Below are positions 3,270-54,245 of a DNA stretch of 64,000 nt, piece by piece. Position 1 is the first letter of the stretch. Each line of letters starts with the position of its first letter. The notes below the pieces were generated by a model. It did no database searches and was not told the DNA's origin. It worked only from the letters and a program-made list of their open reading frames with translations. Made by a program: the position numbers and the translations under genes. Source of the DNA: an uncultured Lachnospiraceae bacterium (lineage in GTDB: Bacteria > Bacillota > Clostridia > Lachnospirales > Lachnospiraceae); assembly GCA_944381515.1 (NCBI GenBank), contig CALWLM010000022.1, positions 1-64,000 on the forward strand, in the 5' to 3' direction.

Positions 3270-4538
3270 TTACATTCCCCACACAAACCAGGTAAACAGA
3301 TATCCGGCCACCACGGCGGTCAGGGTAAAGGGTACGCCGACCCGCAGGAAATCTGAATTCTTCACCTCATAACCGGCCTTGCGCAGGATACCGATACCGG
3401 TAATATTGGCAGAAGCGCCTACCGGCGTCAGATTTCCTCCCAGCGTAGCTCCGGTGAGCAGGCCGAAATACAAAACGTAAGGCTCCACGCCCATCATGCC
3501 CGCCATTCCCTGTACCACGGGAAGCATCGTGGCCACATAGGGGATATTGTCGATAAAGGCGGAGAAAAACACGCTGGCCCAGACGATCAGCGTATAGGCC
3601 AAAAACAGATTATCGCCGCTGATCTTTACAAAGATGCCGGCCACCGCATCGATGACGCCTGCTTCGGTAATTCCTCCGATTATAATAAACAGACCGAACA
3701 GCAGAAGCAGAGTGGTATAATCGATATCTTTGATGGGTCTAAATACCTTCTTAATATCACGGGTGCGCAGATACGTATAGACAAGTCCCACCACCATCAG
3801 TCCCATGCAGATCAGTCCATTGGTGATCGAGGGCTTGTTGGGGATAAAGGAAGCGCAGATCAGCAGAACCACCGTTCCCACCAGCAATATGGTCGGCACA
3901 TAGTCCGTCACCTTCGCCCGCTCCGACACGCTCACGCTGCCGGTCTCCTTGCGAAACAGCCAAAGCAGAACGATGGCCGACAGCACAGCTCCCAGCTCCA
4001 CTGCCCAGAAAATACCCGGTTTCCCCTGAAACCAGAAGAAATCCAGAAAATCCATTCTCGCATAACCGCCCAGCAGAATCGAAGTGGTATCGCCCACCAG
4101 CGTGGCCGCTCCCTGCAGATTGGAGGAGACAGCGATGGAAATAATCACCGGCACGGGATTGATTTTAAGCCGTTCCGACACAGCCAGCGCCACCGGCGCT
4201 ACCATCAGCACAGTGGCCACATTGTCCACAAAGGCGGATACGATTCCGGCAAACAAAGCCAAAAACACCACCGCCCATTTCACATTCGGCGTACGCTCCA
4301 AAATCAGATCCGCCAGCAGCGAGGGCATATTCGAGTCAATAAAGAGAGACACGATTCCCATAGTCCCCGCAATCATCATCAGCACATTAAAATCCACAGC
4401 TCCCAGCACATCGCCCACAGGCAAAATACCGAGAAGAACAAAAAGCGCCGCAGAAATCAGCGCCACCCAGGCTCTCTTATCGGACAGAGCCAAAAGTCCC
4501 ACATAAGTAAGGATAAACAAAATCAATGCCAGTATCAT
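3270..4538 (-). CDS. ArsB/NhaD-superfamily anion/cation permease
   Basis: A 422-residue integral membrane protein with about ten to twelve hydrophobic segments. It fits the ion-transporter (IT) superfamily, ArsB/NhaD/SLC13-like branch: two inverted halves each carry a family signature, SAFVDNVATVLMVAPVALAV near residue 105 and SAFIDNIPYVATMLPV near residue 335, and each half has a polar hairpin loop (NLQGAATLVGDTTS; GGNLTPVGASANITG). Family members move arsenite, Na+/H+ or organic anions; the substrate cannot be read from sequence. Length is typical. The start has GAAAGGGAACG upstream. It has its own promoter-like sequence and sits downstream of hflX on the same strand, separated by about 200 bases, so it is probably a single-gene unit. 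Confidence 0.85.
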   Translation of the reverse strand: MILALILFILTYVGLLALSDKRAWVALISAALFVLLGILPVGDVLGAVDFNVLMMIAGTMGIVSLFIDSNMPSLLADLILERTPNVKWAVVFLALFAGIVSAFVDNVATVLMVAPVALAVSERLKINPVPVIISIAVSSNLQGAATLVGDTTSILLGGYARMDFLDFFWFQGKPGIFWAVELGAVLSAIVLLWLFRKETGSVSVSERAKVTDYVPTILLVGTVVLLICASFIPNKPSITNGLICMGLMVVGLVYTYLRTRDIKKVFRPIKDIDYTTLLLLFGLFIIIGGITEAGVIDAVAGIFVKISGDNLFLAYTLIVWASVFFSAFIDNIPYVATMLPVVQGMAGMMGVEPYVLYFGLLTGATLGGNLTPVGASANITGIGILRKAGYEVKNSDFLRVGVPFTLTAVVAGYLFTWFVWGM

Positions 4539-44721: not shown

Positions 44722-44750
44722 TTGCATAATCTTCCATCCTGTTATAAAAT
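44722..44750 (+). promoter_or_regulatory. Promoter of pfp
   Basis: TTGCAT (44722-44727), 17-bp spacer, TAAAAT (44745-44750), 55 bases before the pfp start. The stretch between this and the divergent lipoprotein gene (44460-44721) is AT-rich and holds the direct repeats noted separately. Confidence 0.7.
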
Positions 44751-44805
44751 AAAGCCAGGTATGCAAACCAGCATCAATCTAAAACATACAATAAGGAGTG
44801 GAATT

Positions 44806-46032
44806 ATGAGCAAGAAAAATGTAATCGTCGGCCAGTCGGGCGGACCTACTTCCGTTATCAACAGCAGCCTTTACGGCGTCGTGACGGAAGCCATGAAGCA
44901 TCCGGAAGAAGTGGGCTGTGTTTACGGCATGGTCAACGGCATCAAGGGCTTTTTGGAGGGCAAGAAGATTGTTCTGTCCGATATGTCCGAGGAGGAGCTC
45001 AAGATTATGCAGTCTACCCCCTCTTCCTACCTGGGTTCCTGCCGCTTCAAGCTGCCTGAGGATCTGTCCGATCCGGTGTTCCCTCAGCTGATGAAAGAGC
45101 TGGAGGAGCTGAACGTAGGCTACTTCTTCTATATCGGCGGCAATGACTCCATGGATACCGTCAGCAAGATGTCCCGTTACGCTGCCAGCGTAAACAGCCC
45201 CATCCGTTTCATTGGCGTGCCCAAGACCATTGACAACGATCTGATCTGCACCGATCACTGCCCCGGCTATGGCAGCGCTGCCAAGTATGTGGCCGCTACC
45301 TGCCGCGAGATCAGCCTGGACGCCGGCGTATACGGTTCCAAGTTTGTCTCCATCGTTGAAATCATGGGCAGACATGCCGGCTGGCTGACCGCTGCCTCCG
45401 TCCTGGCCCGTAAGTTTGAGGGGGACAACCCGGTTCTGATTTACCTGCCTGAGACCGTATTCAGCATCGACTCCTTCCTGGCTGATGTGGAAGAGGCCTT
45501 CAAGAAGACCAACAACGTTATGGTCGCCGTGTCCGAAGGCGTACACGATGCAGAGGGCAAGTTTATCTGCGAGTATGCCACCGCCGACATTGCCGTTGAC
45601 AACTTCGGCCACAAGTCCCTGGCCGGTACCGCTGCCTACCTGGCAGATCTGGTAAAGCAGAAATTCGGCTGCAAGGTTCGTCCCATTGAATTCAGCCTGC
45701 TGCAGCGCTGCGCTGCTCACCTGTCTTCCCTGACCGACGTAACCGAGGCCGCTACCGCCGGCTCCGAGGGCGTCAAGGCTGCTCTGGAAGGCGAGACCGG
45801 TATCATGATCGGCTTCAAGAGAGCCGAGGGCGAAGAGTATCACATCGATTATGTCCGCGTGGATGTAAACGAGGTCTGCAATCAGGAGAAGCCTTTCCCC
45901 GCCGAGTGGATCACCAACGGCGGAAGAGATGTGGGCGAGGGCTACGTTAAGTACGCTCTGCCTCTGATCCAGGGCGCTTCCCCTGTTCAGTATGAGAATG
46001 GTCTGCCTGTATACGCTTACATGCACGACTAA
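44806..46032 (+). CDS. pfp: Pyrophosphate-dependent 6-phosphofructokinase
   Basis: A 408-residue glycolytic enzyme that phosphorylates fructose-6-phosphate reversibly. N-terminal VGQSGGPTSVINSSL is the nucleotide-loop equivalent. The diagnostic segment is YIGGNDSMDT (residues 110-117): Asp after GGN is the mark of PPi use, where ATP enzymes have Gly. PKTIDNDL is the catalytic segment and IMGRHAGWLTA binds sugar phosphate. The length fits the clostridial PPi group. The start has AAGGAG 8 bases upstream; the frame opens 28 codons earlier without a site. Its codon use is strongly biased to a few codons, as in highly expressed genes. A strong terminator follows. Confidence 0.95.
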   Translation: MSKKNVIVGQSGGPTSVINSSLYGVVTEAMKHPEEVGCVYGMVNGIKGFLEGKKIVLSDMSEEELKIMQSTPSSYLGSCRFKLPEDLSDPVFPQLMKELEELNVGYFFYIGGNDSMDTVSKMSRYAASVNSPIRFIGVPKTIDNDLICTDHCPGYGSAAKYVAATCREISLDAGVYGSKFVSIVEIMGRHAGWLTAASVLARKFEGDNPVLIYLPETVFSIDSFLADVEEAFKKTNNVMVAVSEGVHDAEGKFICEYATADIAVDNFGHKSLAGTAAYLADLVKQKFGCKVRPIEFSLLQRCAAHLSSLTDVTEAATAGSEGVKAALEGETGIMIGFKRAEGEEYHIDYVRVDVNEVCNQEKPFPAEWITNGGRDVGEGYVKYALPLIQGASPVQYENGLPVYAYMHD

Positions 46033-46102
46033 ATTGCAGAAGTCATTTAAACGGATTATCTTTTCCGTTTGATGAATTAATCCAAATTTATTCCCAGTAT
46101 TT

Positions 46103-46145
46103 AAGGGGGCTTTTCACTGCGTTTACAGCGAAAAGCCCCCTTTTC
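46103..46145 (+). terminator. Terminator of pfp
   Basis: Stem AGGGGGCTTTTC-CTG / CAG-GAAAAGCCCCCT with single-base bulges, followed by TTT. A strong rho-independent terminator. Confidence 0.93.
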
Positions 46146-46224
46146 ATGTTTCCTTTTTCATATCTCCATACCGCGCCTGTCTGATATCTTTGCGGAAACC
46201 TCTTGACTCTCCCATTATGGTATA

Positions 46225-47073
46225 CTATAAGATAGTGGTCGCGTCCTCTGACCTCATTTGACGTGGATATTTATCCGGCACAGAACACCGCAGCTCAAAA
46301 AGCGGGGCGGAGGTGTCGTTGACGGCCGAAATGGCCTCCACCTCCATAACTATCGTATCACGATCCGGAGCAAACAGGTCCAGGAAAAGCTGAAGAGCCT
46401 TCATGATATCGCTCTTGGATGACTGAGCAAAAACATACCGGGAGGCCGGCAGCTTCATCCATCCCGGCAAATCCTCGCGGCTCTCCTTGCCCGTATCCAC
46501 ATCCAGAAAAATATATCGACTGGTCTGCCCCCTTTTAGATATCATCAGCAGACCGCAGTCATATCCAGGCTTTAGCTCTTCCTGCTCCAGCTGCTCGAAG
46601 AGCTGATTTAACGCCCGGTAATATTCCACCGTATTCTGGGCCCCCGAATAAGGACGCACCAGACAGTTTTTCTCCGGGAGGAGAAAAACCCTCTCCCCCT
46701 CGCCGCGCTGAATGCGCTGCGTGCGAAGCAGTTCTTCCTGTACCTGATGCAGGAAATTCAGCCGGTCCTGAATGCTCTGAATCTTGGCATTGGCCAGCTC
46801 TGTTCCTCTGGCCAGCAGCTTGCCAAAATAAATCTCTCTGTTTTCTGAGCCTGCAAACTCCGGAAACTGCTTTAAGGGAATATCCAGATCGACGCACAGC
46901 TGAATAGCATCTACCACATGCAGCTGAGAAAAGGAATAATACCGGTATTTTGTATCCGGGTCTACATAAGCCGGCGGCAAAATACCAATTTTATCATAGT
47001 ATCGCAGGGATTTGATATGCACGCCGGTGAGCTTTGACAAGGTGCCGATTGACAGAAGCTTGGTTTTATCCAT
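46225..47073 (-). CDS. MerR-family regulator
   Basis: A 282-residue regulator. The winged HTH (residues 8-75) has SIGTLSKLTGVHIKSLRYYD and DTKYRYYSFSQLHVVDAIQL. A dimerisation helix follows (about 85-125). The C-terminal ~150 residues are probably a GyrI-like drug-binding domain (YIFLDVDTGKESREDLPGWM). The start at 47073 has AGGAG 8 bases upstream; the frame opens 11 codons earlier. It lies divergent from a cytidylate-kinase-like remnant and an intact MATE pump, so control of drug efflux is a reasonable inference. It resembles the MerR gene at 24308. Confidence 0.88.
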   Translation of the reverse strand: MDKTKLLSIGTLSKLTGVHIKSLRYYDKIGILPPAYVDPDTKYRYYSFSQLHVVDAIQLCVDLDIPLKQFPEFAGSENREIYFGKLLARGTELANAKIQSIQDRLNFLHQVQEELLRTQRIQRGEGERVFLLPEKNCLVRPYSGAQNTVEYYRALNQLFEQLEQEELKPGYDCGLLMISKRGQTSRYIFLDVDTGKESREDLPGWMKLPASRYVFAQSSKSDIMKALQLFLDLFAPDRDTIVMEVEAISAVNDTSAPLFELRCSVPDKYPRQMRSEDATTIL

Positions 47074-47162
47074 GAATCGCTCTCCTGTATCATTTTTAAG
47101 ATCCATCAGACCACAGAGCCATAGTCTCTGCCCTCATTATATTATAATTGGAGGAGGTTATT

Positions 47163-47294
47163 ATGTCAAAAATCATCACAGTCAGCCGCCAGTTTGGCAG
47201 CGGCGGTCTTTCCATCAAAAAGATCGCTCCCCTGATCGCCGGCTATGCCAAGAGCTGGCTGGAGGAAAACGATAGAAAGGACGAAAAACTATGA
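47163..47294 (+). pseudogene. Mini-remnant of a cytidylate-kinase-like gene
   Basis: A 43-residue frame starting behind GGAGGAGG. The first 15 residues, MSKIITVSRQFGSGG, are the P-loop start of the cytidylate-kinase-like family (about 200 residues), which would continue REIG plus a full kinase. Here it passes directly to LSIKKIAPLIAGYAKSW and a charged end, in frame, so the middle is missing. Its TGA overlaps the ATG of the MATE gene (ATGA). It keeps its ribosome site and may now serve as a leader ORF coupling translation of the pump. Confidence 0.7.
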
Positions 47295-48637
47295 ATTCTG
47301 CAGCTCTGTTTTCCCGGACATCGCCTCTTAAACTTTTTTTCCTGGCCTCCATTCCGGGAGCCATCAGTATGCTGGCCTCAGCCCTGTACCAGACCATAGA
47401 CGGCGTATTCGTGGGACAATATTTAGGTTCCACAGCCTTTGCCGCCGTCAACCTGGCCATGCCCTTTGTTATTATCAACTTTTCACTGGCTGATCTCATC
47501 GGCGTTGGCTCGTCGGTTCCCATTTCCATCAGCCTGGGCCGGAAGGAGGAAAAGGAGGCCTGCAATATTTTCACCTGCGCCTGCCTGATGATTTTCGGTA
47601 CCGGTATTCTGATCGGCCTCCTGCTCTATGGAGCCGCTCCCCTGCTGATCCGGCTGATGGGAGCCGAAGGCGAGTTTGCCGATCTGGCGGTACAGTATAT
47701 ACGGGTATACGCTCTTTGCTCGCCTGTAACCACCATTGTCTTTGCCATGGACAATTTTTTGCGCATCTGCGGCTATATCCGCGGCAGTATGTTCCTCAAT
47801 ATCCTGATGTCAGCCTTAAGCGCCGTACTGGAATTCCTGTTTTTGGGCGTCTTCCACTGGGGCGTATGGGCGGCCGCCCTGGCTACCTGCTCCGGTATGG
47901 TAGTCTGCGCTCTCCTGGCTCTGATTCCCTTTATTCGGGGCAAATCCATTCTGCGCTTTGTGCGGCCCCGCTTCCGTCTGGCAACAATCCGCCAGATTAT
48001 CTCCTGCGGCAGCCCTAATTTTCTGAATAATATTGCCGGACGTATCACTTCCATCCTGCTAAACGCTATTCTGGTACGCGTAGGCGGGGAGAACGCCGTT
48101 TCCGTTTACGGCATTCTGATGTACACCGACGGCTTTATTCAGCCTCTCCTCTACGGTATGTGCGATTCTCTGCAGCCGGCAGTGGGATATAACTGGGGAG
48201 CGGGGAAATATTCCCGGGTCCGTGCCATTGAAAAGTGCTGCTTTACTGCCAGCGCCATCGTCTCCGTGCTGTCCGTCCTGGTCATCGCCCTGCTTCCCCG
48301 TCAGATTACCCTTTTATTCATGGGCGACGCAGGAAGCAATATAATCGCCATGGCGGTCCCTGCCCTGCAGCTGTTCAGTCTGACCTACGTCACCCGCTGG
48401 CTCTCCTTTGCCACCCAGAGTTATATGCTGGCCATCGAAAAGCCCATGCCGGCCTCTGTGATCTCTGTATCCACAGCCCTGATTTTCCCGGTAATCCTGG
48501 TGGTTCTTCTGTGGCCTCTGGGCCTGACAGGCATCTGGCTGAATTTCGCCGGCACTGCCGTCCTGGCCGCCGTGCTGTCCGTCATCATCCTGATTCGGCT
48601 GCGTCCGGAGCTGTCCCGGGCAGACGCCCAGGGCTGA
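47291..48637 (+). CDS. MATE-family efflux transporter
   Basis: A 448-residue pump with twelve hydrophobic segments in two halves. The first half has SIPGAISMLASALYQTIDGV and VGQYLGSTAFAAVNLAMPF; the second has SCGSPNFLNNIAGRITSIL, PLLYGMCDSLQPAVGYNWGA and GKYSRVRAIEKC. It matches the Na+- or H+-coupled multidrug exporters of gut Clostridia. The ATG overlaps the stop codon of the 43-residue mini-ORF (ATGA), implying coupled translation. A divergent MerR gene is 217 bases upstream. Another MATE gene, at 29737, is a remnant. Confidence 0.93.
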   Translation: MNSAALFSRTSPLKLFFLASIPGAISMLASALYQTIDGVFVGQYLGSTAFAAVNLAMPFVIINFSLADLIGVGSSVPISISLGRKEEKEACNIFTCACLMIFGTGILIGLLLYGAAPLLIRLMGAEGEFADLAVQYIRVYALCSPVTTIVFAMDNFLRICGYIRGSMFLNILMSALSAVLEFLFLGVFHWGVWAAALATCSGMVVCALLALIPFIRGKSILRFVRPRFRLATIRQIISCGSPNFLNNIAGRITSILLNAILVRVGGENAVSVYGILMYTDGFIQPLLYGMCDSLQPAVGYNWGAGKYSRVRAIEKCCFTASAIVSVLSVLVIALLPRQITLLFMGDAGSNIIAMAVPALQLFSLTYVTRWLSFATQSYMLAIEKPMPASVISVSTALIFPVILVVLLWPLGLTGIWLNFAGTAVLAAVLSVIILIRLRPELSRADAQG

Positions 48638-48729
48638 CATACGGACCCAAACTTTGTTTTTTATACAAGAATTCGCTGAACAATTGATTTTTGTTTCATA
48701 ATTTAGCGGAACACCTGATGTATACACAC

Positions 48730-48776
48730 AAAAAGTCCGAGGAGCGTCTGATCCGCACGCCTTCCCCGGACTTTTT
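48730..48776. terminator. Bidirectional terminator between the MATE and HPr-dehydrogenase genes
   Basis: Ten-bp arms AAAAAGTCCG and CGGACTTTTT with a 27-base loop that can pair partly. A and T runs on both sides serve both convergent genes. Confidence 0.85.
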
Positions 48777-48809
48777 CATTCTGCTATTTTGTTCAGTCTA
48801 TTATTCCAT

Positions 48810-50105
48810 TTACTGCGCCTTTACCTCTGCACTGCCATAGTCGTTGCCCTCATTGAAATTGCGGGCGTTTTCCATGGTCTCAAAGGCGATAGCCTGCAGC
48901 GCCTCTCTGGTAAAAAAGGCCTGATGGCTGGTCATCACCACCTGCGGAAACATCAGCAGTCTGGCCGTTATATCGTCGGTGATGGGAATATCGCTGCGGT
49001 CGGTATAGACATTATTGTCCTCTCCCTCGTAGACATCCAGAGCCACCGCGTGAAATTTGCCCTTCTTCAGGGCGGCAATCAGAGCCTCGTTATCGATCAG
49101 ACCGCCGCGGGCTGTGTTGACAAGCATAACCTGGTCTTTCATCAGCGCAATGGTCCGCTCATTGATCAGATGATAGGTGGACGGAAAGAGGGGCGCATGC
49201 AGGGAAATCAGATCGGCCTTGCGAAACAGCTCTTCCTGCTCCACATAAGTCAAAAGGCCTTCGTCCACCAAAGCCTGATTGGGATAGGCGTCCCATCCCA
49301 GCACCGTCATGCCGTATCCTTTGCAGATCCGGGCCATGCAGACACCGATCTTGCCGGTTCCGACAATACCGGCCACCTTGTTGTGCAGATCCAGTCCCAG
49401 CAGGCCGCTTAAGGCAAAATTATTATCCTTCACCTTGTTGTAGGCCTTGTGCAGATGACGGTTGGCCTCCTGAATAATAGCCATGGCATGCTCCGCCACA
49501 GCGTAAGGGGAGTAGGCCGGCACCCTGAGCACCGTGATCCCGTACTCGGCCGCCGCCTTCAGATCCACATTGTTAAATCCGGCACAGCGCAGCAGGATCA
49601 GCCGCACTCCATAGTCATGGAGCTTTTCCACCACCGGCCGGGACACATTGTCGTTGACAAAGACGCAGACTGCGTCATAACCCTCGGCCAGCCCCGCCGT
49701 CTCCGGTCCCAGATTCGAGGTAAAATATTTGATATCCGAATTGTAAGTTCCTTCACCCTTGTCCTTTGTCAGTTCGCTGAAAAAGGTTTTGTCGTAATCC
49801 TTGGTGCCAAAAAAAGCAATCTTCAGCAAAGAGGCCGTTTTCTTTTCGTTAAATTCTCTGGCAATCACTTCTGCCAGAGCCTTTTTGGCCTCTTCCTCGT
49901 CCGCTCCCTCGATCCGTATCGTCAGGATGTCTCCCTTTCTGGCTGCCAGACCCAGCAGCTCCAGCACATTGCCGCCGTCCGCCGTTTTGCCGTGAAGGCT
50001 CACTGTCACCGCACTTTTAAAACCCACACAGCACTGGGCAAAAAGGGCACAGGGACGGGCATGAACACCCAGGGGATTGGTTACTTCATAAATGATCTCT
50101 CTCAT
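48810..50105 (-). CDS. HPr domain fused to D-lactate/2-hydroxyacid dehydrogenase
   Basis: A 431-residue fusion. Residues 1-90 form an HPr-like PTS phosphocarrier domain: PLGVHARPCALFAQ puts His at position 15, the phospho-site, followed by the conserved ARP; at position 46, where Firmicute HPr has the regulatory Ser, there is Asn (TADGGNVLEL). Residues ~95-431 are a D-isomer 2-hydroxyacid dehydrogenase: NAD site AGIVGTGKIGVCMARICKGY, Arg in VNTARGGLIDN, Glu in DVYEGED and His in TSHQAFFT, closest to D-lactate dehydrogenases. The start at 50105 has GGAGGAG; the upstream extension lacks a site. It links D-lactate formation to PTS phosphorylation, a role that is inferred. It is convergent with MATE. 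Confidence 0.9.
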   Translation of the reverse strand: MREIIYEVTNPLGVHARPCALFAQCCVGFKSAVTVSLHGKTADGGNVLELLGLAARKGDILTIRIEGADEEEAKKALAEVIAREFNEKKTASLLKIAFFGTKDYDKTFFSELTKDKGEGTYNSDIKYFTSNLGPETAGLAEGYDAVCVFVNDNVSRPVVEKLHDYGVRLILLRCAGFNNVDLKAAAEYGITVLRVPAYSPYAVAEHAMAIIQEANRHLHKAYNKVKDNNFALSGLLGLDLHNKVAGIVGTGKIGVCMARICKGYGMTVLGWDAYPNQALVDEGLLTYVEQEELFRKADLISLHAPLFPSTYHLINERTIALMKDQVMLVNTARGGLIDNEALIAALKKGKFHAVALDVYEGEDNNVYTDRSDIPITDDITARLLMFPQVVMTSHQAFFTREALQAIAFETMENARNFNEGNDYGSAEVKAQ

Positions 50106-50223
50106 AGGCTCCTCCGATCTGGGGCAAGGACGCGCGCCGGCGGCAGCATATCCTGACCGCAGCGGTACATAAACCGCCCGCCCTCCCCATGGCTGGCTAC
50201 AGGTTACTATTACTGCTCCGCTC

Positions 50224-51924
50224 TTACTGCTCCATCCTGCGTGCAAGCTCTTCGGCCAGCTCTGCCTCGGCAGCTTTCGCAGCAGCCTGGTCCGGCGCTG
50301 ATACGCAGATGTATGCCTTAATCTTTGGTTCCGTACCAGAAGGACGAATCACCACAGAGCCTCCTCCCTCCAGCGCAAACCGCAGCACATCGGAGGGGGG
50401 CAGACCATCAATGCCGTCCCGGTAGTCTTTTCGTTCCGTAATTTGTATCCCGGCAAAGATCTCCGAACTCTCCCGCAGACTCTTCATAATCTCCTGCATC
50501 CGGACAAAACCGGCCGCCCCGGGAAAGCTGTAGGAATGCAGAGTATTCAGACAGAAGCCATATTCTTTATAGAGCTCCATCAGCCGGTCATACAGAGCAA
50601 CTCCCCGGCTCTTATACCAGGCAAACATCTCACAGATCAGCAGGGAGGCCACTACACCATCCTTATCCCGAACGTAGGAGCCGCTCAAATAGCCATAGCT
50701 CTCCTCAAAGCCAAAGACAAAATCCTCTGCCCTGCCCTCTCGCTCCAGCCTTCCAATCTGCTCGCCGATATATTTAAATCCGGTCAGCACATTGATGCAG
50801 CCAACTCCATAGCGGGCAGCAATCCGCTGCGCCATATCGGTGGTGACAATGGTCTTGATGAAGACCGGATTTTCCGGCAGCCTTCTCTGCTCCGCTCTCC
50901 TGGCACAAAGGTAATCCAGCAAAAGCATCCCCGTCTCATTGCCGGACAAAAGGACATGCCTTCCCTCCGGCCCCTTCACGGCGATACCCACCCGGTCGCA
51001 GTCCGGGTCCGTAGCCAGAACCAGCTCCGCATCCTCTCTGGCAGCATACCGGATTCCCAGTTCCATGGCCTCCCGAATCTCTGGATTCGGGTAAGGGCAA
51101 GTGGGAAAGCTTCCGTCCGGCTCCCGCTGCTCCTCCACCACGGTAATATTCCCGTAGCCATTCTCCTTTAATGTGCGCAGCACAGGCTTTAAGCCTGTCC
51201 CGTTAAGAGGAGTATAGACGATGGATACATTTTTGTCAATATTTTCCTCTGCCGTCAGCACAGACTGCTCCGACACCCGGCGGACATACTCTGCATACAC
51301 ATCCTCACCGATCAGACGGATCTGTCCTGCCGCCAGTCCTTCCTCGAAGGAGGATAGCTCCTCTGCGCCAAACATTTCCTCGGCCTCAATTCGGGCCAGG
51401 ATCTGGGCCGCAGCCTCTTCCGTAATCTGGCAGCCGTCGGGGCCATAGACCTTGTAGCCATTGTACTCCGCCGGATTGTGGGAGGCTGTCACCATGACGC
51501 CGGCGGCACAGCGCAGCTGCCGCACCGCAAAAGAAAGGCAGGGCGTGGGCATCAGCTCCGGGTATATCCAGGCCTCAATACCGGCGCCGGCAAATACCTG
51601 GGCCGAAATCCGTGCAAAAAGATCCGAATGAATCCGCGAATCATAACTGATGGCTATTCTTCTTTCGCTGGGAGCAAAATTTGCCTTCACGTAGGCAGCC
51701 ACTCCTCTGGCTGCCCGCGCCACCGTATAGACATTCATCCGGTTGGGCCCGGCTCCCAGGATACCGCGCAGTCCGCCTGTTCCAAAAGACAGATCCTTGA
51801 AAAAAGCGTCCTCCTTTTTCTTCGGATCATCCTTCATCGCCTGAAGCTCGTCTGCAAGCTCGTCATTCTCTGCGGCGCAGGCCACCCATTGTTCATAGCG
51901 CTTTTCTATTTCTTCTCTGTTCAT
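50224..51924 (-). CDS. Phospho-sugar mutase (phosphoglucomutase/phosphomannomutase)
   Basis: A 566-residue alpha-D-phosphohexomutase. The active-site serine loop is VMVTASHNPAEYNGYK near residue 145. The metal loop is LATDPDCDRVGIAV near residue 310. The sugar loop is VFGFEESYGYLSG near residue 405, and the phosphate site is VVIRPSGTEPKIKAY near the C terminus. Length fits the clostridial group that acts on glucose and mannose phosphates. It follows manC by 41 bases, so it likely supplies mannose-1-phosphate for GDP-mannose. The family alone does not decide between glucose and mannose. Confidence 0.93.
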   Translation of the reverse strand: MNREEIEKRYEQWVACAAENDELADELQAMKDDPKKKEDAFFKDLSFGTGGLRGILGAGPNRMNVYTVARAARGVAAYVKANFAPSERRIAISYDSRIHSDLFARISAQVFAGAGIEAWIYPELMPTPCLSFAVRQLRCAAGVMVTASHNPAEYNGYKVYGPDGCQITEEAAAQILARIEAEEMFGAEELSSFEEGLAAGQIRLIGEDVYAEYVRRVSEQSVLTAEENIDKNVSIVYTPLNGTGLKPVLRTLKENGYGNITVVEEQREPDGSFPTCPYPNPEIREAMELGIRYAAREDAELVLATDPDCDRVGIAVKGPEGRHVLLSGNETGMLLLDYLCARRAEQRRLPENPVFIKTIVTTDMAQRIAARYGVGCINVLTGFKYIGEQIGRLEREGRAEDFVFGFEESYGYLSGSYVRDKDGVVASLLICEMFAWYKSRGVALYDRLMELYKEYGFCLNTLHSYSFPGAAGFVRMQEIMKSLRESSEIFAGIQITERKDYRDGIDGLPPSDVLRFALEGGGSVVIRPSGTEPKIKAYICVSAPDQAAAKAAEAELAEELARRMEQ

Positions 51925-51965
51925 ATATTAAGATAAAACCTCGATCCCTTTATCCTGTGATTCAT

Positions 51966-53291
51966 TCAGTCCTGGGACAGCTCCAGGGGATATTTGTGTT
52001 TATCATGGACGCTGATGTCATGTCCCAGCTGAACCTCGATAATCTTAAGTTCCGTCTCCGCCTGGATTGTATGGCGGCAGCCCGCCGGCATACGGATCAC
52101 CGTCCCCGGTTCCACCTGCTGTCTCCGTCCGTCCACCACGGCCCAGCCGCGGCCCTCAATTACGGTCCAAACCTCGTCGCGCAGATCATGGCTGTGATAA
52201 TTCATGCCATGGCCAGGATTCAGCGTTACCTTGATCGTCAGGCTGTCTTCCTCCACATCCAGGATCATAAAGCTGCCCCAGGATTTCTCGGCAAACATCA
52301 CTCTCTGCTCAATGCTGTCCACAAAGGGCTTGATGTAGCTGGACTGATCCTTGTCCGAGACCAGGATGCCCTCGGCGCTGGCTGAAACCACCACGTTTTT
52401 CAGTCCCATACACAGTACCGGCACATTAAGCTCATTGATAACGCTTAAGTTCTCACAGCTGTCATTAAACAGGGCCTGTCCGATCACCGGTTCGCTCATC
52501 TCCTCGGTCAGCGTGTTCCAGGTGCCCAGATCCTTCCACTGGCCGTCAAAACGCATAACCTGGATCTCTTTCTCCTGCTCCGCCACCGCATAGTCAAAGC
52601 TGATCTTTTGCAGACTTTCATATTTATCGTAGAGATCCTGATAATCTGTAAAATCGATCTTTTCATGGGCTTTTTCCAGCACGTATTTCAGCTTATATGC
52701 AAAGACGCCGCCGTTCCACAGAGCTCCTTCGGCAATATAGCGCCGGGCCGTCTCCTGGTCAGGCTTCTCTTTAAAGGTTTTGACTGTGCTGATCTCTCCC
52801 ATGTCATCCGGAATAATATAGCCGTATTTCTCGCTGGGATAGGCGGGAGCAATCCCCAGGAGCACCAGGTTGGCCTCTCCTTTTTCGGCCTGCCTGCCCA
52901 GACGGCAGATGGCCTCAAAATAGTCCTCATTCACATAGGGGTCCACCGGGCATACTACTACAGCCTCCTCCTCAGATACCCCGCGGACATCGCGAAGATA
53001 GGCGGTGGCCAAAGCGATGGCCGGGAAAGTGTCTCTTCTGGCCGGCTCCACGCTGATGCCCACCGCGTCCCCCAGCTGATTGTGAATGGCGGAGACCTGC
53101 GTCTTGGAGGTAGCGATGGTCACCTCTGCCTGGGGGTCCGCTTCCTTGATCTGACGGTACACCCGCTGCACCATGGACTCATACACTCCGTCCTCCCGCT
53201 TAAATATCTTGATAAACTGCTTGGAACGGATATCATTGGACAGAGGCCACAGCCTCTTGCCCGAGCCTCCGGACAACAATACGATATTCAT
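51966..53291 (-). CDS. manC: Mannose-1-phosphate guanylyltransferase
   Basis: A 441-residue enzyme making GDP-mannose from GTP and mannose-1-phosphate. The N-terminal nucleotidyltransferase has the signature LLSGGSGKRLWPLSNDIRSK near residue 5, with FKEKPD near residue 170. The C-terminal part (about 340-430) is a type II mannose-6-phosphate isomerase-like cupin with VTLNPGHGMNYHSHDLRDEV, so it may be bifunctional. The start has AGGAG 6 bases upstream and the frame begins 9 bases after fcl ends. It lies in the block gmd, rfbD, fcl, manC, mutase. Confidence 0.93.
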   Translation of the reverse strand: MNIVLLSGGSGKRLWPLSNDIRSKQFIKIFKREDGVYESMVQRVYRQIKEADPQAEVTIATSKTQVSAIHNQLGDAVGISVEPARRDTFPAIALATAYLRDVRGVSEEEAVVVCPVDPYVNEDYFEAICRLGRQAEKGEANLVLLGIAPAYPSEKYGYIIPDDMGEISTVKTFKEKPDQETARRYIAEGALWNGGVFAYKLKYVLEKAHEKIDFTDYQDLYDKYESLQKISFDYAVAEQEKEIQVMRFDGQWKDLGTWNTLTEEMSEPVIGQALFNDSCENLSVINELNVPVLCMGLKNVVVSASAEGILVSDKDQSSYIKPFVDSIEQRVMFAEKSWGSFMILDVEEDSLTIKVTLNPGHGMNYHSHDLRDEVWTVIEGRGWAVVDGRRQQVEPGTVIRMPAGCRHTIQAETELKIIEVQLGHDISVHDKHKYPLELSQD

Positions 53292-53300
53292 AAGTCTCTC

Positions 53301-54245
53301 CTATCTCTCCGCCCGCATGGGGTTGTGGAGGAAATCATCGTAGGCCAGCTGAATTCCATCGACCAGCTCCGTCTTATAGGTCCAGCCAAGATTTTTAAGT
53401 TTGGTAACATCCAAAAGCTTGCGGGGCGTACCGTCCGGCTTGGTTGGATCCCATTTGATCTCTCCCTCGTAGCCGATAACCTTCGCCACCAGCTCCGTCA
53501 GCTCCTTGATGGTCAGCTCCTTGCCGGTGCCCACGTTTACCGTTTCGTTGCCGGAGTAATTGTTCATCAAAAACAGGCAGGCGTCAGCCAGATCATCCAC
53601 ATAAAGGAATTCGCGCAGCGGTGTTCCGGTTCCCCAGCAGGTGACCTCTGTAAGCCCCTGTTCCTTGGCCTCGTGGAAGCGGCGGATCAGCGCCGGCAGC
53701 ACATGGCTGTGGGTGGGATGATAGTTGTCGTTGGGCCCATACAGGTTCGTGGGCATGGCCGAAATATAATCCGTACCGTACTGGCGGTTCAAAAACTCGC
53801 AATATTTCAGACCGGAAATCTTGGCCAGGGCATAGGCCTCGTTGGTCTTTTCAAGCTCCGAGGTCAGCAGGCAGCTCTCCGGCATGGGCTGAGGAGCCAT
53901 CCGGGGGTAAATGCAGGAGGAGCCAAGAAACAGTAATTTCTTGCAGTCGTTCTGCCAGGCGGAGTGAATTACGTTCATCTCCAGGATCATGTTGTCATAC
54001 ATAAAATCGGCCAGAGCGCTCTCGTTGGCCACAATGCCGCCTACCTTGGCCGCCGCCAAAAAGACATAATCCGGCTTTTCCGCCGCAAAGAACTCTTCCA
54101 CATCTGCCTGACGGCACAGATTCAGCTCCTTATGGGTACGGGTAATAATATTGTGATATCCCGCTTTCGTGAGGGCGCGGACAATGGCGGAGCCCACCAT
54201 TCCCCGATGGCCCGCCACATAGATTTTTGCGTCTTTTTCCATCAT
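53301..54245 (-). CDS. fcl: GDP-L-fucose synthase
   Basis: A 314-residue short-chain dehydrogenase that epimerises and reduces GDP-4-keto-6-deoxymannose to GDP-L-fucose with NADPH. The N terminus [18 protein letters not shown] carries the NADP site. The catalytic Ser is in [10 protein letters not shown] and the Tyr-Lys pair is in [31 protein letters not shown] is diagnostic for GDP-fucose synthase. It is followed by manC after 9 bases. With gmd it completes the two-step path from GDP-mannose. Two ATGs are adjacent at the start; the first is used. Confidence 0.95.

Follow-up and report, generated by a model that had tools for sequence, protein, structure and literature searches.

An HPr domain fused to a D-lactate dehydrogenase in gut and rumen bacteria: a candidate link between sugar uptake and fermentation

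Introduction

The phosphocarrier protein HPr (PtsH) of the phosphotransferase system (PTS) acts on central metabolism as a free protein at the node between phosphoenolpyruvate (PEP) and pyruvate. For example, in Vibrio vulnificus unphosphorylated HPr reduces the Michaelis constant (Km) for PEP of pyruvate kinase A (PMC5987630), and both PykF and PfkB are bound by HPr in Escherichia coli (PMC8167557). Here we describe a gene that encodes an HPr domain and a D-lactate dehydrogenase (D-LDH) as a single polypeptide, found in a 64,000-nucleotide stretch of DNA (hereafter the window) from an uncultured Lachnospiraceae bacterium (GenBank assembly GCA_944381515.1, contig CALWLM010000022.1, positions 1 to 64,000 of the forward strand).

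The fusion shares with HPr its fold elements, His15, Arg17, Pro18 in most cases and a match over residues 1-85, but differs in being a covalent part of a metabolic enzyme, in the replacement of Ser46 by Asn or Asp, in a variable Gly54 and in a conserved Cys26. With the LdhA-type D-LDHs of E. coli, Pseudomonas aeruginosa and Fusobacterium nucleatum it has in common the catalytic Arg, Glu and His and the nicotinamide adenine dinucleotide (NAD) motif, whereas the N-terminal HPr domain and small insertions set it apart. The regulation of pyruvate kinase by HPr (V. vulnificus PykA, E. coli PykF) offers a precedent for HPr acting at the PEP/pyruvate node, although the partners there are separate proteins and the enzyme is a different one; in the fusion the HPr part is covalently joined to the enzyme that it would regulate. 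HPr is also a domain of a larger protein in the multiphosphoryl transfer proteins (FruB/FPr, HPr-EI and EIIA-HPr fusions), and fusions of HPr to other PTS domains are well known (PMC2405797); in those proteins the partners are PTS domains, whereas in the window protein the partner is a fermentation enzyme and Pfam detects no Enzyme I or EIIA domain. Finally, Crh is likewise a divergent HPr paralogue specialised for regulation, yet it is a mirror image of the fused domain, since Crh loses His15 and keeps Ser46 while the fused HPr keeps His15 and loses Ser46. No description of an HPr-dehydrogenase fusion was found in the literature searched, a search that most subscription journals lay outside, and domain databases probably show this architecture.

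The analysis below leads to the proposal that a fermentation enzyme reads the PEP/pyruvate balance by means of PTS phosphorylation of the HPr domain that it carries, that systematic replacement of Ser46 has uncoupled it from HPr kinase, and that it arose a single time, probably when neighbouring genes fused, before spreading among Lachnospiraceae, Erysipelotrichia and Eubacteriaceae-like lineages of the gut and rumen. Taken with all of its parts, we regard this proposal as plausible, if short of probable.

A two-domain protein encoded in one frame

An earlier model-made reading of the DNA alone (the sequence-only reading) had reported an HPr-like domain followed by an apparently complete 2-hydroxyacid dehydrogenase in one frame. 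The fusion is placed exactly at positions 48810-50105, with both halves matched by Pfam above cut-off, and the gene lies on the minus strand, a detail absent from that reading. Its elements are:

48810-50105, minus strand: HPr-D-LDH fusion gene, 431 amino acids plus stop (one frame, domain searches, alignment of relatives)
50110-50115, minus strand: Shine-Dalgarno-like GGAGGA ahead of the ATG (read from the sequence)
49854-50105, minus strand: HPr domain, residues 1-84, beta-alpha-beta-beta-alpha-beta-alpha (Pfam PF00381, matches to HPrs in the PDB, predicted secondary structure)
49827-49853, minus strand: linker, residues 85-93, variable in sequence and fixed in length (alignment)
48813-49826, minus strand: LdhA-type D-LDH domain, residues 94-431 (Pfam, PDB sequence matches, Foldseek)

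The ATG start codon at 50105 encodes a Met that nearly all aligned relatives share, and this conservation, together with the ribosome-binding site, rules out the wrong start that had been named as a risk. HPr and dehydrogenase domains are the only ones that Pfam finds: PTS-HPr (PF00381) at residues 6-82 (E 3e-21; 75.7 bits against a cut-off of 23), plus 2-Hacid_dh_C (E 1.6e-49) and 2-Hacid_dh (E 5.5e-30), both over their cut-offs. These E-values rule out chance similarity as the source of the domain calls, and NCBIfam TIGR01003 is matched as well (68.6 bits against 47.9).

Residues 1-85 also match HPrs of known structure by sequence (E 3e-14, PDB). A structural model of the fusion, built from 43 fused sequences, has the HPr order of secondary-structure elements, with a predicted local distance difference test score (pLDDT) of about 85-95 in the HPr domain; the model is of a monomer, so interfaces with partners are invisible in it. 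When the HPr domain was modelled alone from a single sequence the pLDDT was 57, a low-confidence result that was left out of the fold comparison. The predicted HPr fold is thus assigned from the order of secondary-structure elements and the sequence matches, and not from a fold comparison of the lone domain.

The dehydrogenase half is complete, with both 2-hydroxyacid dehydrogenase domains found and the catalytic residues kept. Its best sequence matches in the PDB have E-values of 1e-91 to 1e-95; the best structural matches (Foldseek) are the D-LDHs of P. aeruginosa, F. nucleatum, Salmonella and E. coli, and identity to the fermentative D-LDHs of these four is about 45%. The key positions, with conservation given over an alignment of 80 rows (the window protein plus 79 relatives) that also underlies the counts below, are:

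49344-49361, minus strand: GTGKIG dinucleotide-binding motif, residues 249-254 (sequence)
49107-49109, minus strand: catalytic Arg333, 80 of 80 rows (alignment)
49020-49022, minus strand: catalytic Glu362, 78 of 80 rows (alignment)
48924-48926, minus strand: catalytic His394, 80 of 80 rows (alignment)

We take Arg333, Glu362 and His394 to be the equivalents of Arg235, Glu264 and His296 of E. coli LdhA. The GTGKIG loop and Asp272, at the end of the second strand, favour NAD as the cofactor. An LctP-family lactate permease gene adjoins the fusion in seven loci (five divergent and two on the same strand, one directly downstream and one directly upstream), an arrangement that supports, without proving, lactate as the product. 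The window's own genome (98.4% complete) contains no L-lactate dehydrogenase/malate dehydrogenase-type enzyme of family PF00056. A further D-LDH candidate in this genome is a VanH-like dehydrogenase (L002:1366-2433, contig C84), which scores 320 bits against the general VanH model (cut-off 540), falls under all curated cut-offs and is probably an ordinary 2-hydroxyacid dehydrogenase. Two proteins of the Eubacterium pyruvativorans group (L081 and L085) have Gln in place of the catalytic Glu at residue 362, and in four (L080, L081, L085 and L087) Thr replaces the first Gly of the NAD loop, residue 249; enzyme activity in this group may differ.

The HPr active centre is retained under selection

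The sequence-only reading had placed the phosphorylated His at position 15 within the motif GVHARP, and alignment to HPrs of known structure bears this out. The residues concerned are:

50061-50063, minus strand: codon of His15, the predicted phosphorylation site, 80 of 80 rows (alignment)
50055-50057, minus strand: codon of Arg17 of the HPr active centre, 80 of 80 rows (alignment)

Gly13, His15, Ala16, Arg17, Leu48 and Leu53 are invariant in all 80 rows, and Pro18 is present in 78. The ratio of nonsynonymous to synonymous substitution rates (dN/dS) is 0.02-0.17 for the HPr domain in the 16 close pairs with a defined value, and 0.005-0.06 for the LDH domain in close pairs; these data indicate that the HPr domain is under selection. 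The HPr half does evolve faster than its partner (mean column entropy 1.55 bits versus 0.65 for the dehydrogenase), as a neutral fusion with a functionless, vestigial HPr would predict. Such a fusion is nevertheless very improbable and was largely rejected, given the invariant His15-Ala16-Arg17, the low dN/dS, the fixed linker length and the retention of the HPr part throughout the sampled fused clade.

The fully retained active-centre residues would also suit a protein that works mainly as a phosphocarrier, with the HPr domain passing phosphate to a particular EIIA, as multiphosphoryl transfer proteins do, and the dehydrogenase riding along. We consider this improbable, because most of these genomes hold other HPrs, the LDH domain is the more conserved half, and in 81 loci the largest families of neighbouring genes include no recurring gene recognised as a PTS permease or PRD regulator.

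Two further features of the domain were observed. Cys26 (window 50028-50030) is kept in 78 of the 80 fused HPr domains, a position at which free HPrs mostly have Ala or Ser. In addition, the two fused HPrs in which Pro18 is changed are those of L076 and L084.

Position 46 and a predicted separation from HPr kinase

The Asn reported earlier at position 46 is confirmed by alignment to Ser46 of Bacillus subtilis HPr:

49968-49970, minus strand: codon of Asn46, which replaces the regulatory Ser46 (alignment)

Across the 80 rows Asn occupies this position in 66, Asp in 11, Ser in 2 and Glu in 1; the window protein lacks the Ser that characterises HPr-kinase-regulated proteins (Firmicutes HPr, Crh). 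Among free HPrs of this and related genomes Ser46 is found in 22 of 26, and the HPr encoded beside Enzyme I in the window's own genome has it too. Asn, Asp and Ser are all good helix caps. With Asn or Asp at residue 46, the helix beginning there would still be capped and the fold retained, while the hydroxyl used by HPr kinase is gone.

HPr phosphorylated on Ser46 is a poor substrate for Enzyme I and acts as a co-repressor with CcpA (PMC12445079), so loss of Ser46 would keep the fused domain readable by Enzyme I and place it outside CcpA signalling. The earlier claim that the enzyme is blind to HPr kinase thus appears sound for the Asn46 forms, on the chemistry of the residue, but does not extend to the two fused HPrs that retain Ser46 (L040 and L057).

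A possible phosphorylation switch and its alternatives

The window's own genome encodes Enzyme I, HPr kinase, the Ser46-bearing HPr beside Enzyme I and other HPrs, and Enzyme I is present in 25 of the 26 other fusion-bearing genomes tested. The window's own genome also encodes a Crh-like paralogue of HPr (L098:1495-1752, contig C15) in which residue 15 is Glu and Ser46 is kept; its gene comes after a WhiA-like gene and near the HPr kinase gene.

In the mechanism that we propose, Enzyme I of the same cell would phosphorylate His15 from PEP. As PTS sugars enter, phosphate would drain from the domain and PEP/pyruvate would drop, and the unphosphorylated HPr part would favour the active dehydrogenase; at low PTS flux, phosphorylated His15 would reduce dehydrogenase activity. 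At high glycolytic flux, when much of the ordinary HPr is phosphorylated on Ser46, Enzyme I would still be able to read the switch. Phosphorylation-dependent control of the dehydrogenase by its HPr part is, in our judgement, somewhat more probable than the remaining explanations together, whereas the direction of control, with the unphosphorylated form active, is offered only tentatively. Such a switch would most likely be the principle of HPr control in trans made permanent, with the HPr domain reporting PTS flux to its own D-LDH.

The linker bears on how the two domains might communicate. The span from residue 80 to residue 98 is exactly 19 positions in 76 of the 80 rows, even though the linker sequence is highly variable (entropy 2.6 bits). 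Since insertions and deletions would be expected to accumulate in a loose tether, the fixed length favours a set geometry in which the two domains would operate. This observation also weighs on a rival in which the HPr domain serves for docking or channelling, bringing the D-LDH to Enzyme I, where pyruvate is released from PEP, or to membrane PTS permeases, with phosphorylation incidental to catalysis. An HPr active centre with His15 and Arg17 kept and the near-universal presence of Enzyme I would both fit a docking role, but the constancy of the linker exceeds the need of a tether and one fusion-bearing species seems to have no intact Enzyme I to serve as a docking partner; we consider docking unlikely, if the least unlikely of the alternatives.

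That species, Baileyella intestinalis, weighs against a simple form of control through the PTS. Its assembly contains the fusion, but the only trace of Enzyme I is an internal piece of ~250 residues (residues about 213-466) that lies in a long contig and lacks the HPr-binding half, and no free HPr was detected in this assembly. The HPr domain is nonetheless constrained, with a dN/dS of 0.05 between Baileyella and its nearest relative, a metagenome-assembled genome (MAG) also without an Enzyme I match. Furthermore, Gly54, usual near His15 in ordinary HPrs, varies among the fused domains. The PTS of Baileyella seems to have decayed, and its fusion retains His15, so either the loss of Enzyme I is recent or the function of the HPr domain extends beyond Enzyme I. 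The Enzyme I fragment (L179, G773:C12:145500-153500, about 3520-4281) lies beside an apparently truncated sugar-hydrolase gene.

A role independent of Enzyme I would make the HPr fold a structural or ligand-responsive element in which His15 and Arg17 bind an anion (a phosphorylated sugar, PEP or phosphate) and no phosphoryl group is carried. The constrained domain in Baileyella and its relative and the variable Gly54 both point this way, but Enzyme I is found in all but one of the genomes tested and the Baileyella remnant suggests that its loss may be recent; on balance this explanation seems slightly less probable than docking. The suggestion of the sequence-only reading that the dehydrogenase could be governed by PTS phosphorylation stands in part: the invariant His15 and Arg17, the complete D-LDH, the loss of Ser46, the presence of Enzyme I and the fixed linker speak for it, and Baileyella and Gly54 against it.

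If control by PTS phosphorylation is correct, sugar uptake and the end product chosen by gut and rumen bacteria would be linked directly and covalently, and the fusion would be a natural case of a metabolic enzyme with an integral PTS phosphoprotein domain. It would also make the effect of HPr phosphorylation on a pyruvate-node enzyme testable with one purified protein and one point mutation.

Distribution and origin

A scan for relatives, using one genome per species, followed up the earlier question of how widespread the fusion is. Relatives were found in 80 genomes, nearly all of them full length, with 60-95% identity. Cultured holders include Sharpea azabuensis DSM 18934, Sharpea porci, Eggerthia catenaformis DSM 20559, Floccifex porci, Eubacterium pyruvativorans i6, Baileyella intestinalis and Lachnoclostridium An131. 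The fusion is intact in about 80 genomes, and their number and the isolates among them rule out the assembly or frameshift artefact that the sequence-only reading had allowed for. As labelled, the holders belong to the Lachnospiraceae, Erysipelotrichaceae, Coprobacillaceae and Eubacteriaceae, plus two MAGs labelled Selenomonadaceae (Negativicutes; fusions L052 and L057), for which transfer, misbinning or mislabelling are candidate causes. The distribution is patchy: the fusion occurs in 11 of 348 sampled Lachnospiraceae genomes, as a single copy in each, and 398 genomes sampled evenly across the phylum yielded two more besides the window's own.

In a tree built from the dehydrogenase domain the fused proteins group together in a single clade (Shimodaira-Hasegawa-like approximate likelihood ratio test, SH-aLRT, 100) that is sister to unfused enzymes of the same family, and no loss of HPr is seen within this clade in the sampled tree. 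This topology indicates one fusion event followed by patchy spread. The fusion is old as well as conserved. Compared with most unfused enzymes, the fused ones have small insertions near residues 113-122 and 283. G005 and G006, two further genomes from the genus to which the window belongs, have a distant unfused enzyme instead.

A possible pre-fusion state is found in one genome (G036):

L093 (G036:C24), minus strand: gene pair, HPr from 2838 and D-LDH from about 2475

The separate HPr gene ends ~105 bases upstream of the D-LDH gene, and each has its own ribosome-binding site. This HPr keeps Arg17, has Cys in place of Pro18 and Gln at position 46, and among 348 family genomes it matches fused HPr domains better than any free HPr. 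The dehydrogenase of the pair is placed on the unfused side of the tree, and a tree of the HPr domain has too few columns to place the split HPr with support. The simplest reading is that the gene pair came first and the fusion second, although the HPr tree is too short for proof.

In the genome of Sharpea azabuensis the fusion is the only LdhA-type enzyme found. The D-LDH gene of this species was reported as 12-fold up in low-methane sheep (PMC5069950), and we infer that the upregulated gene is the HPr fusion.

Gene neighbourhood

No conserved operon partner was found across the 81 loci. Upstream of 80 loci, Rex-like sites showed no useful enrichment (2 of 80 versus 0.4 expected) and no site like the catabolite-responsive element (cre) was found; a promoter scan near the fusion gene of the window gave no match. 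Two features flank this gene:

48730-48776, no strand assigned: inverted repeat plus T run that separates the fusion gene from a convergent MATE gene, a likely shared terminator (read from the sequence; unreported by the promoter scan)
50224-51924, minus strand: phosphoglucomutase/phosphomannomutase gene, the upstream neighbour (Pfam; local to the window)

The genes around the fusion (window 44722-54245) encode a phosphofructokinase, a MerR regulator, the MATE exporter, the phosphoglucomutase, a mannose-1-phosphate guanylyltransferase-like protein and a GDP-fucose synthase-like protein.
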